DNA of 64,000 nt from Hydrogenimonas sp. (lineage in GTDB: Bacteria > Campylobacterota > Campylobacteria > Campylobacterales > Hydrogenimonadaceae): positions 186,001-250,000 of the forward strand of contig AP019005.1 of assembly GCA_003945285.1 (NCBI GenBank). The letters run 5' to 3'. The position numbers and the translations under genes are program-made. Of this stretch, positions 41,272 through 46,590 are shown piece by piece. The notes beneath the pieces are model-generated. The model had not been told where the DNA came from. It was given only the letters and a program-made list of their open reading frames with translations, and did no database searches. Within the stretch, counting starts at the first letter, position 1; each line of letters opens with the position of its first letter.

Positions 41272-42048
41272 ATGAAAATCAAAAGCAATCTCTGGTTCGA
41301 GAGCGAAGAGAGGGCCTTTTTCGGCAAAGGGCGCATCGAGCTTCTGGAGCAGATAGCCCGCTGCGGCTCCATATCGAAAGCCGCGAAAGCGATGAAGATG
41401 AGTTACAAAGCGGCATGGGATGCGGTTAACGAGATAAACTCCCTCTCCAAAGAGCCGATAGTTGTCAAAGAGACCGGCGGCAGGGGAGGCGGAGGAACCA
41501 GGCTCACGGAAAAAGGGCTTGAGTATATCCGTATCTACAAAGAGCTCGAAAAGCTGCAGAGCAGGTTCTTCGACCTCCTTGCCGAGCGGGCTGAAGATAT
41601 GGATCGTCTCGGCTCCATCGGCGGAAGGCTGACTCTTCAAACGAGTGCCAGAAACCAGTTCTCCGGGACGGTCGTAAAGATCGAGTGTACCGATGTCGAG
41701 TGCGGAGTGGAGCTTGATATCGGTGAAGAGCGGCCCATAAGAGCGCTTATAACCAGAAAGAGTGCCGAAAATATGGCGATAGAGGAGGGGATGGAGCTCT
41801 TTGCGCTGATCAAGAGCAGCTGGGTATCGATCGGGAGAGAGCCATCTGTAGACGGAAGCCTGAACTCCCTGGAGGGGAGGGTCGCCTCTTTGAGAGATGA
41901 CGGTGACTTTACAGAGACGGAGCTGCTTTTGAAGGGCGGTAGGGTCGTAGTTTCAGTAACCTCTTCAGTAGATGCCGCCGAAGGGTTGAAGGTGGGCGAA
42001 AAGGGCTACGCGGTTTTCAGCCCCTCCGATATCATTTTGGCGAGATAG
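41272..42048 (+). CDS. modE: ModE family molybdate-responsive transcriptional regulator
   Basis: A 258-residue regulator. Residues ~1-110 are the winged helix domain (RIELLEQIARCGSISKAAKAM, SYKAAWDAVNEIN, then the GRGGGGTRLTEKG wing), as in ModE. Two Mop/TOBE domains follow (NQFSGTVVKIECTDVECGV; SLEGRVASLRDDGDFTETEL), which bind oxyanion. A ModE-type operator lies 220 bases downstream, ahead of the porin-mod operon. It would repress molybdate uptake when molybdate or tungstate is plentiful. Confidence 0.92.
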   Translation: MKIKSNLWFESEERAFFGKGRIELLEQIARCGSISKAAKAMKMSYKAAWDAVNEINSLSKEPIVVKETGGRGGGGTRLTEKGLEYIRIYKELEKLQSRFFDLLAERAEDMDRLGSIGGRLTLQTSARNQFSGTVVKIECTDVECGVELDIGEERPIRALITRKSAENMAIEEGMELFALIKSSWVSIGREPSVDGSLNSLEGRVASLRDDGDFTETELLLKGGRVVVSVTSSVDAAEGLKVGEKGYAVFSPSDIILAR

Positions 42049-42230
42049 GGGATTTTCCCAAATCCCGAAATAGAGATAGAAGAACTCGTCACGATCATTG
42101 CAGCCATGCACTTCCGGGAAAATCATCGACGCACCTGACGGGTGCGCCTCAAATTTTCCCGAAACCGCTTGGCCACAAGCATCGCAACGATTTCAAACTA
42201 TTCTATTTCGAGATTTGGGATTTCCCGTTT
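42049..42230. repeat. ~180-base imperfect palindrome between modE and the mod operon
   Basis: Arms of about 85 bases pair around GCACC-TGAC-GGGTGC (42131-42146). Outer arms read CCCAAATC-C-CGAAATAGA versus the complement of TCTATTTCG-AGATTTGGG; the inner part is CCGGGAAAAT / ATTTTCCCG. No open frame with coding character. It could be a miniature transposable element, a structured RNA or a terminator complex for modE. Confidence 0.7.
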
Positions 42231-42267
42231 CGGCTAAGCTTCCATTCAGTCGGTTGGGAATAGAATT

Positions 42268-42291
42268 CGTTATATATAAAAAGATATAACG
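42268..42291 (+). promoter_or_regulatory. ModE operator at the porin-modA promoter
   Basis: A perfect inverted repeat CGTTATAT-N8-ATATAACG. E. coli ModE sites have the same half-sites and eight-base spacing. It covers a TATATAAA stretch that could be the -10, so binding would block transcription of the 42313-46487 operon. Confidence 0.85.
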
Positions 42292-42312
42292 CTATGGAGA
42301 AGGGAGAAATCT

Positions 42313-43779
42313 TTGCGGTTCGGTTTGTTTCTGGCTTCACTCACTCTCTCTGTTCCTCTGCTCTGCAGTGCAGCAGGGGAGGATACAAAAGCTCTTTTAT
42401 GTTCCAACGGTTCGGTCTGTTTTACAGAGCCGCCGGCAGATGTGCAGAGTCTCTCCCGGATTTTCGCCCAAGGGGAGTTTGTCGGGCGATTGAGAACGAA
42501 CAGCTTCTTTTACGACTACAGAGACGACTCTTATGCCGGCCGCAAGGATAACCGGGCGGTTGCCGTCGGGGGTTCGCTCATTTTCAGGTCGGCACTTTAT
42601 AGAGGCTTCGGTGCGAAAGCGGCACTATATACATCCCAGAATCCGTACCATATGGATGATGCCGATGTTGTCTACCTCAAGTCGGGTAAAGATGTAACGG
42701 ACCGGTACAGGGTTTTGAAAAACGGAGATTGGGGAATGAGTGTTCTTGCCGAAGCCTTTCTCAGGTATATGAAGGGTGGCACGCAGTTAAGAGCCGGAAG
42801 GTTGGCCTTCGACTCTCTGCTTACGGCTGCCAACGACTCCAAGATGATACCCAACACCTTCGAAGGTTACACGCTGGAAACCCCTGTTTTCGGTGACGGC
42901 TGGCTCAAGGCGGCATGGCTGGTGCGCCAGAAGCTCAGGGGCCACACCTCTTTCCACCATCTGCTCGCATACGGTGACGACCCGGCCGATCCCTACTCGA
43001 AATACAGCCAGAACGACGACTCGGCCATGCACCGCGGGCTGACACTTTCGAAACTGAATGCGCTCGGCATAAAGGATAGGCTTCTGGTTGCCGAGTATAG
43101 AGGCGGTGTCGGCAAAAGAGCCGGGGTGATGCTGAACTACAGCACGGTTCCGGACCTGCTCTCCTATGCGGCGGCGGATATCTACCTCTCCTTCCGTGCC
43201 GCCGGGGTGAAGATCTCTCCGGCGCTCAGGTATCTCAGGCAGATGGACGAGGGTGCCGGTGCCATTGGAGGCGCAAATCTAAAAGGCGACACCGCCGGAT
43301 ATGCAGACCCAGACTCGCTTGACGGCGCTCTTTACGCGGCCAGAGTCGATTTTGCGCGGGGGGATGTGTGGCGTCTGAGGGTAGGGGTGTCGTACGTGGA
43401 GGACAGGGGTGACATAGTGGCTCCCTGGCGCGGTTTCCCCACCGGCGGCTTTACGCGCGCCATGGGGCAGTACAACTGGTATGCCGACACGCAAAGCTAT
43501 ATGGTACGTGCAGATTACGACTTCGGTGAAGCCGGCATCGCAGGGGGGCTCAAGGGCACCGTAAAGTATGTGATAGAGGATTTTGACGATGCCAAACCGG
43601 GTGTCCCGGCCGATATCGATGTTGTAAATATAGATATTACGGAGAGATTCGAAGCGGTTCAGGGACTCTATGCAAGGCTGCGGATGGCGATAGGCTTTGG
43701 GAGCTCACAGGCTCAACCCGTACAGAAGCCAGACCCATCCTATTCGGAATACAGGTTCGAAGTGAACTATCTGTTTTAA
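42313..43779 (+). CDS. Outer-membrane porin in the ModE-controlled molybdate operon
   Basis: A 488-residue barrel with a signal peptide (LFLASLTLSVPLLCSAAG) and the C-terminal YRFEVNYLF. It resembles OprD-like porins of this phylum (ARAGRL-type 'LRAGRLAFDSLL', NDSKMIPNTFEGYTLE). TTG at 42313 follows AAGGGAG. Direct placement behind a ModE operator and nine bases before modA suggests that it admits molybdate or tungstate through the outer membrane. Two cysteines near the mature N-terminus (LLCSNGSVCF) are unusual for a porin. Confidence 0.82.
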   Translation: MRFGLFLASLTLSVPLLCSAAGEDTKALLCSNGSVCFTEPPADVQSLSRIFAQGEFVGRLRTNSFFYDYRDDSYAGRKDNRAVAVGGSLIFRSALYRGFGAKAALYTSQNPYHMDDADVVYLKSGKDVTDRYRVLKNGDWGMSVLAEAFLRYMKGGTQLRAGRLAFDSLLTAANDSKMIPNTFEGYTLETPVFGDGWLKAAWLVRQKLRGHTSFHHLLAYGDDPADPYSKYSQNDDSAMHRGLTLSKLNALGIKDRLLVAEYRGGVGKRAGVMLNYSTVPDLLSYAAADIYLSFRAAGVKISPALRYLRQMDEGAGAIGGANLKGDTAGYADPDSLDGALYAARVDFARGDVWRLRVGVSYVEDRGDIVAPWRGFPTGGFTRAMGQYNWYADTQSYMVRADYDFGEAGIAGGLKGTVKYVIEDFDDAKPGVPADIDVVNIDITERFEAVQGLYARLRMAIGFGSSQAQPVQKPDPSYSEYRFEVNYLF

Positions 43780-43788
43780 AGGATCGGC

Positions 43789-44532
43789 TTGAAAGTTCTC
43801 TTTTTGACTCTTCTTCTACTTTTTTGCGAGAGTCTGGGCGCTACCGTTACGGTCGCATCCGCCGCTAATGTAAGTTACGCCCTCGAAGAGCTGTGCGAAG
43901 ATTTCGAAAAGGGGAGCGGAGTGGATGTCAGGGTGGTTGTCGGCTCTTCCGGGAAGCTCACCGCACAGATAGAGAGGGGAGCCCCTTTCGACCTGTTTCT
44001 ATCCGCGGATATGAGCTACCCGGTGCGTCTCTGGAAGAGGGGGTTCGCGGTGAGCAGGCCGCGGGTATATGCCGGGGGTTCGCTGGTGGTATGGAGCCTC
44101 AAGGGTGCTGATATAAGCGGGGGTGTAAGATCTCTTCAGGACGGCTCCATCGGGCGAATCGCCATAGCCTCCGTGAAGAGCGCACCCTACGGCAGGGCGG
44201 CCGAAAGAGCGCTCAAGGCGGCCGGGGTCTACGAGAAGGTAAAGAGCAGGCTGGTCTATGCGGAGAGCGTTTCGCAGACCAACAGATATATCGTCTCGAA
44301 AGTTGTAGATGCGGGCATAACGGCGAAGTCTGTCGTTATGTCGCCCAAAATGGCCGGAAAGGGGGAGTATGTGGATGTGGATCCCTCTCTCTACACCCCG
44401 ATAGAGCAGGGTATAGTCATACTGAAACATGCCGAATCGGGGTCGATGGAAGATGCCAGGAGATTTTATAACTACATCTTCAGCGACAGGGCGAAGGCGA
44501 TATTGAAAAAGTACGGGTATATCGTGGAATGA
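43789..44532 (+). CDS. modA: Molybdate ABC transporter substrate-binding protein
   Basis: A 247-residue periplasmic binding protein with signal peptide (LFLTLLLLFCESLGA). ModA motifs: VASAANVSYALEEL, VVVGSSGKLTAQIERGAPFDLFLSAD and the C-terminal half APYGRAAERAL. The Ser residues in ASAAN and GSSGKL would bind the oxyanion. TTG start at 43789 with AAAGGAT before it. It overlaps the next gene by ATGA. Confidence 0.92.
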   Translation: MKVLFLTLLLLFCESLGATVTVASAANVSYALEELCEDFEKGSGVDVRVVVGSSGKLTAQIERGAPFDLFLSADMSYPVRLWKRGFAVSRPRVYAGGSLVVWSLKGADISGGVRSLQDGSIGRIAIASVKSAPYGRAAERALKAAGVYEKVKSRLVYAESVSQTNRYIVSKVVDAGITAKSVVMSPKMAGKGEYVDVDPSLYTPIEQGIVILKHAESGSMEDARRFYNYIFSDRAKAILKKYGYIVE

Positions 44533-44933
44533 ACAGGCTCAGAGGCAGAATTAGCGCCATAGAGAGTTCTGGTGAGCTTTCACGAACGGATATAGAGTGC
44601 GGAGATACGGTATTGACGGCGTATCTGATGGGCGGTGTGGAGGAGAGTTTCCGCGAAAAAGTGGGGAGTGAAGTGTGGGTTCTGTTCAAGGAGAGCGAAG
44701 TGGCGCTCGCCAAGGATTTCAGCGGTCAGATCAGCCTCCGCAACAGATTCGAAGGGCGCATAGAGTCGATAGAGCGCGGAGATCTTCTTGCGCAGGTCAC
44801 TATTGGATACGGCAACGATACGATAGTCTCAATAATAAGCCGCCGCGCATGTGACGCCATGAAGCTTCAAGTCGGCGAGAGTGTTACCGCGCTCGTCAAG
44901 GCAAACGAGATAACGCTGATGGAGTGCTCATGA
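44529..44933 (+). CDS. Di-Mop (molbindin-like) molybdate-binding protein
   Basis: A 134-residue protein made of two Mop/TOBE repeats: NRLRGRISAIESSGELSRTDI... and NRFEGRIESIERGDLLAQVTI..., each about 65 residues. It has no DNA-binding domain. Molbindins store or buffer molybdate or tungstate in the cytoplasm. Its overlaps on both sides (ATGA with modA and with modB) tie it to the transporter. Confidence 0.88.
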   Translation: MNRLRGRISAIESSGELSRTDIECGDTVLTAYLMGGVEESFREKVGSEVWVLFKESEVALAKDFSGQISLRNRFEGRIESIERGDLLAQVTIGYGNDTIVSIISRRACDAMKLQVGESVTALVKANEITLMECS

Positions 44934-45607
44934 GTGATCCGATGTTCTGGGATACAATGGAGCTTACATTCCTGCTCGCTTCGGTTACGACGATGATTCT
45001 TCTCGTCATAGGCATACCTATTGCATACTACCTCGCCACTACCGAGTCACGCATCAAGCCGGTCGTGGAGACCTTAGTCAGTATGCCGCTGGTGCTCCCG
45101 CCGACCGTGCTCGGCTTCTATCTGCTCGTAGCGTTCAGTTCTGAGAACGCTTTCGGTCGCTTTTGCGAAGAGGTTCTGGGGTTCAGGCTCGTCTTCTCGT
45201 TCTGGGGGCTGGTTCTCGGCTCCGTGATCTTCAGCCTTCCATTCATGGTCCACCCGATTCAATCGGGCCTGCAGTCTCTTCCCAAATCTCTGGCTGAGGC
45301 TTCCCAGATGCTTGGAAAGTCCGGAGTGACGACACTTTTTAGGGTACTTCTGCCGAATATAAAGCCCTCTTTGCTCACCGGAATCGTTATAACTTTCGCC
45401 CATACGGTCGGAGAGTTCGGAGTGGTTTTGATGATAGGAGGCAACATACCGGGCGAGACGAGAGTGGCTTCGATAGCCATATACGATGAGGTGGAGGCTC
45501 TGAACTACGCGGCGGCGAACAGCTACGCCATGGTACTTTTCGCCGTGACATTCTCCATTTTGCTCTTTGTCTACATCTTCAACCGCTCATTTTTGAGAAA
45601 GATGTGA
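44930..45607 (+). CDS. modB: Molybdate ABC transporter permease
   Basis: A 225-residue permease with about five membrane helices. PLVLPPTVLGFYLLVAF, AEASQMLGKSGVTTLFRVLLP (EAA loop) and FAHTVGEFGVVLMIGGNIPGETR (shortened to its G-E-F-G core) are ModB features. ATG at 44930 is five bases after GGAG and overlaps the previous stop. Confidence 0.93.
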   Translation: MSDPMFWDTMELTFLLASVTTMILLVIGIPIAYYLATTESRIKPVVETLVSMPLVLPPTVLGFYLLVAFSSENAFGRFCEEVLGFRLVFSFWGLVLGSVIFSLPFMVHPIQSGLQSLPKSLAEASQMLGKSGVTTLFRVLLPNIKPSLLTGIVITFAHTVGEFGVVLMIGGNIPGETRVASIAIYDEVEALNYAAANSYAMVLFAVTFSILLFVYIFNRSFLRKM

Positions 45608-45608
45608 C

Positions 45609-46487
45609 ATGGTGAAGATAGATATCGTAAAGAGGCTGCACTCCGCCGAAGGAGACATGGAGTTGAAGATACGAGCCTCTTTCAAGAAGGGTGACTTCGC
45701 GGCCTTTTTCGGAGAGTCGGGAGCCGGAAAGACTACGCTTCTTAGGATTGTCGCAGGTTTGCAGAGACCGGACTACGGCCGTATAGAGGCGTGGGGCGAA
45801 GTGTGGTTCGACAGTGAAAAGGGGATAGACGTTCCGCCGCAGAAAAGAGAGGTCGGTTTCGTTTTCCAGGACTATGCACTCTTTCCGAACATGAGTGTGA
45901 AGGAGAACCTGAAGTACGCCCTGAAAAAGGGTGACGACGCATCGATCGTGGATGAGCTTATAGAGACGACGGGACTTGGCGCGCTGGCATCCAGGTACCC
46001 ATCCACTCTCTCCGGCGGACAGCGGCAGCGTGTAGCGGTGGCACGTGCGCTTGTAAGACGCCCGAAGATTCTCCTGTTGGATGAGCCGCTATCCGCCCTC
46101 GACCACTCGATGCGCTCTAAACTTCAGGACGAACTGGCGCAGATACACAGAAGATTCGGCCTGACCACCATACTTGTAAGCCACGATCCCGGCGAGATAT
46201 TCCGCCTATGCAACTACATGTACCGTATAGAGAGGGGGAGTGTGGTAAAGGAGGGAAACCCGTCGGACGTCTTCGTCAGGGAGCGTATAGGCAGCAGTTT
46301 CAAATTCGCCGGCGAAGTACTGGCCATTGAGAAGTGTGAAATGGTCTATCTGCTCACCGTTGCCATCGGAACACAGATAGTGAAGATCATGGCTACGGAA
46401 AAAGAGCGTGAAGGGTTGAGAGTTGGAAGCAGGATACAGATAGTATCAAAAGCGTTTCATCCGATGATTTTCAAAATAGAGTCTTGA
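45609..46487 (+). CDS. modC: Molybdate ABC transporter ATP-binding protein
   Basis: A 292-residue ABC ATPase. Walker A GESGAGKTT (35-43), signature LSGGQRQRVAVAR, Walker B ILLLDEPLSALD, H-loop LVSHDPGE, and a C-terminal TOBE-like part of ~75 residues (SSFKFAGEVLAIEKC). One base after modB; last gene of the mod operon. Confidence 0.93.
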   Translation: MVKIDIVKRLHSAEGDMELKIRASFKKGDFAAFFGESGAGKTTLLRIVAGLQRPDYGRIEAWGEVWFDSEKGIDVPPQKREVGFVFQDYALFPNMSVKENLKYALKKGDDASIVDELIETTGLGALASRYPSTLSGGQRQRVAVARALVRRPKILLLDEPLSALDHSMRSKLQDELAQIHRRFGLTTILVSHDPGEIFRLCNYMYRIERGSVVKEGNPSDVFVRERIGSSFKFAGEVLAIEKCEMVYLLTVAIGTQIVKIMATEKEREGLRVGSRIQIVSKAFHPMIFKIES

Positions 46488-46514: not shown

Positions 46515-46590
46515 TGGTGGCCAGAGGCAGAATCGAACTGCCGACACGCAGATTTTCAGTCTGCTGCTCTACCGACTGAGCTATCTGGCC
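46515..46590 (-). tRNA. tRNA-Phe (GAA)
   Basis: A 76-base tRNA on the minus strand with an encoded CCA (complement of 46515-46517). Acceptor GGCCAGA pairs with TCTGGCC, the D-arm has AGCTCAGTCGGTAGAGCA, the anticodon arm CAGACT-GAA-AATCTG gives GAA, and the T-arm contains GTTCGATTC. It lies between convergent modC and murD. Confidence 0.96.

Follow-up and report, generated by a model that had tools for sequence, protein, structure and literature searches.

A porin gene of the OprD/Occ type behind a predicted ModE operator at the head of a molybdate operon in Hydrogenimonas sp.

In E. coli and other bacteria, the ModE-modABC operon combines a full-length ModE regulator, a promoter operator of the CGTTATAT-N8-ATATAACG type and the gene order modA-modB-modC. 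For their passage through the outer membrane, molybdate and tungstate generally depend on unspecific porins. For phosphate, PhoE and OprP are starvation-induced porins linked to import genes. In Geobacter sulfurreducens, a Fur-regulated porin is located ahead of feoAB (PMC545781). Elemental sulfur raises the OprD-like porins of Sulfurovum indicum, for which a role in sulfur uptake has been proposed (PMC10045233). Co-regulated nutrient porins are already known, as in the case of the Fur-controlled porin before feoAB (PMC545781); searches of open-access literature gave no report of a molybdate porin or of a porin belonging to a ModE regulon.

The locus described here belongs to a 64,000-nucleotide stretch of contig AP019005.1 (the window) from Hydrogenimonas sp., a vent-type bacterium. 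It resembles the known ModE-modABC operons by its full-length ModE, its type of promoter operator and its modA-modB-modC order (Table 1). In contrast to E. coli-type modABC, the porin gene comes first, mop is separate while ModC has no Mop domain, and a MITE parts modE from the operon promoter. With PhoE/OprP and the Geobacter feoAB porin, the porin would share co-regulation with the matching inner-membrane importer; it differs from them by its link to molybdate and ModE instead of phosphate or iron, and by its porin family. We propose that the locus is a molybdate-uptake operon under ModE control whose first gene, for an outer-membrane anion porin, is an addition. With molybdate (or tungstate) bound, ModE would occupy the 24-base operator over the transcription start and switch off porin-modA-mop-modB-modC. 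When cytoplasmic molybdate drops, ModE would be released and the porin made together with ModABC, and the outer-membrane permeability for oxyanions would rise alongside periplasmic capture and inner-membrane import. The sign of this regulation is taken from E. coli ModE, and we infer molybdate or tungstate to be the relevant porin solute. A probability of about 0.65 was attributed to this model as a whole, in which the porin serves oxyanion entry.

Table 1. Features of the porin-mod locus, in positions of the window.
Feature	Position	Strand	Basis
modE, full-length (DNA-binding domain and two Mop/TOBE domains)	41272-42048	+	TIGR00637, TIGR00638, alignment
MITE-like near-palindromic repeat, 163 bp	42057-42219		copy number, inverted repeats, target duplications
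Putative -10 box TAGAAT	42261-42266	+	TACAAT at equivalent place in G005, G006, G008
Predicted ModE operator CGTTATAT-N8-ATATAACG	42268-42291		exact palindrome, unique in genome, kept in relatives
Outer-membrane porin, OprD/Occ fold, 488 aa, signal peptide, TTG start	42313-43779	+	PF03573, model, Foldseek
modA, periplasmic molybdate-binding protein, TTG start	43789-44532	+	TIGR01256
mop, separate molybdate-binding (Mop/TOBE) protein	44529-44933	+	TIGR00638 78 bits, cut-off 55
modB, molybdate permease	44930-45607	+	TIGR02141 227 bits, cut-off 182.6
modC, ATPase, without C-terminal Mop domain	45609-46487	+	TIGR02142 best NCBIfam match

The identity of the mod genes was established by profile searches. 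ModE scores 107 bits against TIGR00637 (cut-off 98.5) and 102 bits against TIGR00638 (cut-off 55), and it aligns with E. coli ModE (1o7l) along residues 9-257 with an identical TSARNQ motif. ModA is a TIGR01256 equivalog (187 bits, cut-off 62.5) whose best match among solved structures is the molybdate-binding protein 9wgd. ModC is shorter than its E. coli counterpart and, with 223.8 bits over positions 4-263 of the 353 positions of the profile, remains under the TIGR02142 cut-off of 285. In the order porin-modA-mop-modB-modC, the genes overlap or are separated by at most 9 nt. The genome codes for NapA, formate-dehydrogenase-like and other molybdoenzymes, and no TupB-type tungstate permease scored above cut-off in it; on these two grounds, the cell probably imports Mo/W mainly through ModABC. 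A tRNA gene (46518-46590, minus strand; Rfam tRNA, 73 bits) is found just 3' of modC.

The full 24-base palindrome reads CGTTATAT-ATAAAAAG-ATATAACG and is the sole site with fewer than three mismatches in the whole genome (2,193,435 bases), whereas about 0.0004 exact copies are expected by chance in a genome of equal size and composition. No further site with up to three mismatches was detected in the window, for 0.08 expected by chance. Compared by eye, its inner core agrees with 15 of the 16 specified bases of the E. coli ModE consensus, ATCGNTATATA-N6-TATATANCGAT (quoted in PMC545781). The original prediction of a perfect E. coli-type palindrome at the porin-modA-mop-modB-modC promoter, with modE adjacent, is thus confirmed: the site is exact and unique, and the gene families are those announced. 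Six other genomic sites were considered as additional ModE sites and rejected, since each has three mismatches and their number is no more than chance allows; a reversed-pattern control likewise gave 7 matches per strand, and most of the six overlap long open frames. The putative -10 box ends one base before the operator, and the TACAAT boxes of three congeners (G005, G006 and G008) end one or two bases before theirs. Because a -10-like box occupies the same place in these genomes, the operator probably covers the transcription start, whose position we infer, as expected for a repressor.

Two of these congeners, G005 and G006, whose ModE proteins are respectively 72% and 69% identical to that of the window, possess modE, a 16/16 operator and modA without porin, in the midst of syntenic genes. 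As the same perfect operator, with its -10 box, directly precedes modA in both, sequence comparison indicates that the porin stands at the head of an operon that ModE already controls. The nearest relative examined, judged by MraY, GpmI and MurD identity, is G006, whose mod locus has no porin, while in the tree the porin has its sister in G008, with a further close homologue in G007, both with the TTG start and the Shine-Dalgarno sequence; this distribution implies a loss of the porin from G005/G006 or else repeated gain. Absence of the porin from the mod loci of close relatives, named by the original prediction as evidence against itself, was observed in at least three congeners, G005, G006 and G013, and counts in part against it. 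In G009, G014 and G017, the order is modE-porin-modA and the porins belong to another clade; in G010 (L183) a distantly related porin precedes modA, without modE, at the syntenic position after DUF481-mscS. In a hand count of 47 modA-bearing loci of the order, window included, which were a non-random selection made mostly on ModE score, 12 had the porin in the locus and 35 did not. Given this absence and that from G005, G006 and G013, the porin appears as an optional element that is not needed for molybdate uptake.

Two minor observations were made in these congeners. In G010 (L183), a divergent porin-modA-mop-modB-modC operon lacking modE appears to have taken the place of the mod operon, and a second, distant porin-like gene (62-66 bits) is present 3' of modC in G009 and G017 (L181, L182).

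A porin scan of bacterial genomes provided 80 loci, and with the congeneric loci 99 porins, duplicates of the latter included, were labelled by their neighbours: 37 mod, 29 sox, 7 with chorismate-binding-enzyme neighbours, 6 AnmK/symporter, 4 FtsW/RodA-type, 2 wtp and 14 other. The operator was then counted after removal of redundant loci and of those with fewer than 200 upstream bases, as a site matching at least 14 of 16 bases, with an N8 spacer, within 1200 bases upstream. In this comparison of linked porins and operators, which the original prediction had suggested for the mod loci of Campylobacterota, the site was found upstream of 22 of the 30 mod-linked porins versus 0 of 52 porins in other contexts (Fisher p ~1e-13, the loci being counted as independent and relatedness ignored). 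Two layouts were distinguished. In the first one, modE is followed by the operator, the porin and then mostly modA (the window, G008, L052, L056, L072 and L084, as well as G007, on two contigs, and L085, whose contig stops after the porin). In the second one, the operators are 5' of modE, often as a pair about 33-45 bases apart, and the porin directly follows modE (for example L039, L040, L075, L080, L087, L091, L099 and L106). Single or twin operators ahead of a modE-porin-modA operon are predicted to give the same regulatory outcome as the first layout.

These data also bear on the possibility that the palindrome does not function as a ModE site, or that ModE acts on modE/modA only and a separate promoter drives the porin. 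In agreement with it, a few mod loci with a porin lack a recognisable site (no operator of at least 13/16 was found in those of G009, G014 and G010). However, many species keep the site, at a fixed length of 24 bases, ahead of the porin, of modE or of modA, and in the window 21 bases separate the operator from the porin start and just 9 bases the porin from modA; this explanation was considered very improbable. Membership of the porin in the ModE regulon, claimed from the start, is well supported by an operator that is conserved before mod-linked porins across Campylobacterota, absent from porins in other contexts and placed directly ahead of modA in porin-less congeners. The porin being first behind the ModE switch, in an arrangement repeated many times in relatives, the cell, when short of the metal, probably makes a further outer-membrane gate for molybdate or tungstate. 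Regarded as a molybdate-starvation-induced anion porin, it is likely as to regulation and plausible as to substrate.

The porin itself was assigned by sequence and by structure. Its match to PF03573 (OprD) is borderline, with 25.4 bits for the whole protein, marginally above the cut-off (25), and 18.9 bits, under it, in the genome search; a profile built from 85 homologues matches solved Occ channels. The AlphaFold2 model (pLDDT 93.5) retrieved OccK9/OpdK by Foldseek (E ~1e-22), and nearly all of its 42 best PDB matches are Occ/OprD-family channels. The protein thus resembles the Pseudomonas channels OpdK, OpdG and OpdO in fold (query TM 0.67 and target TM 0.83-0.87 with OpdG/OpdK), in a short sequence match and in conserved basic residues, but it is only 11-18% identical to Occ channels in the structural matches, is longer and stands in an oxyanion-import operon. 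At 22 positions, 85% or more of the family members carry Lys or Arg, whatever the gene context; this is suggestive of an anion channel and does not single out molybdate. A molybdate-specific residue signature was searched for and not found, only 5 weakly discriminating columns separating mod-linked from sox-linked porins. A plasmid search with the porin gave one match, in Sulfurovum mangrovi.

In the tree, the mod-linked porins occupy several separate clades. A single origin was rejected, as the tree needs 9 label changes; some labels are uncertain (contig ends, L067, L082) and "several" is safer than this number. The porin-mod linkage thus seems to have arisen or been reshuffled several times. 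In two deltaproteobacterial MAGs (L043, 463-6000, and L053, 4860-10156), a related porin adjoins a substrate-binding/helix-turn-helix (PBP-like) regulator and a WtpABC-type (tungstate) transporter, the L043 binding protein being a WtpA equivalog above cut-off.

The main alternative to be weighed here is a different cargo: a general anion porin, or one for sulfur compounds or carboxylates, may by chance have been inserted behind the ModE promoter and serve permeability alone, so that molybdenum starvation raises it. Its homologues in sox operons (29 of the 99 labelled loci) and beside AnmK/symporter and other genes, the basic residues common to all contexts and the sulfur uptake proposed for the S. 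indicum OprD-like porins (PMC10045233) are in agreement with such a cargo. The likeness to the Sulfurovum/Sulfurimonas porins, from the same phylum, is at the level of the broad OprD annotation (PMC10045233); homologues of the porin described here occur in sox loci. On the other hand, repeated placement of different porin lineages in mod operons, and also beside wtpABC, would hardly be expected of a random cargo, and the search of the genome for SoxB, run without positive control, was empty; an unrelated cargo was judged rather unlikely. A dedicated molybdate/tungstate route through the porin is plausible because porins of unrelated lineages share the association with mod genes, and because such an association also exists with wtpABC. 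The same family is, however, also common in sox loci, and its conserved pore-type residues do not tell the two groups apart.

In sox operons (e.g. L117, L112, L095 and L111), the homologous porin is directly 3' of a soxB-like gene, in a set coding for SoxZ, a SoxA-like cytochrome, SoxB-like, porin, metallo-beta-lactamase-like, thioredoxin-like and DsrE-like proteins. This sox-operon porin is a candidate porin for thiosulfate or another sulfur anion. More tentatively, the subfamily, found in Campylobacterota and some deltaproteobacterial lineages, could consist of outer-membrane gates for tetrahedral oxyanions and their thio forms recruited repeatedly to mod, wtp and sox loci. If so, the vent porin would admit molybdate/tungstate or thiomolybdate, and the cargo of the subfamily would be molybdate, tungstate and thiosulfate. 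A porin under ModE control that mod operons have acquired repeatedly would give a trace metal oxyanion a step of its own at the outer membrane. The locus offers a directly testable system for the entry of molybdate and tungstate through the outer membrane and gives a lead to the substrates of a large set of Campylobacterota porins that are uncharacterised.

The 163-bp repeat between modE and the promoter of the mod operon is a MITE-like element expanded in this lineage. At least 40 copies, with 86-98% identity, are present in the genome (e.g. G000:C1:1963926-1964088), 40 of about 100 candidates having been scored, and the true copy number may be higher. Among 17 congeners, matches were obtained only in G015 and, weakly, in G007, with at most one or two per congener. 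The element is bordered by the terminal inverted repeats CCCAAATCTCGA/TCGAGATTTGGG, is flanked at most copies by 5-bp target duplications and folds as one hairpin of -70 kcal/mol.
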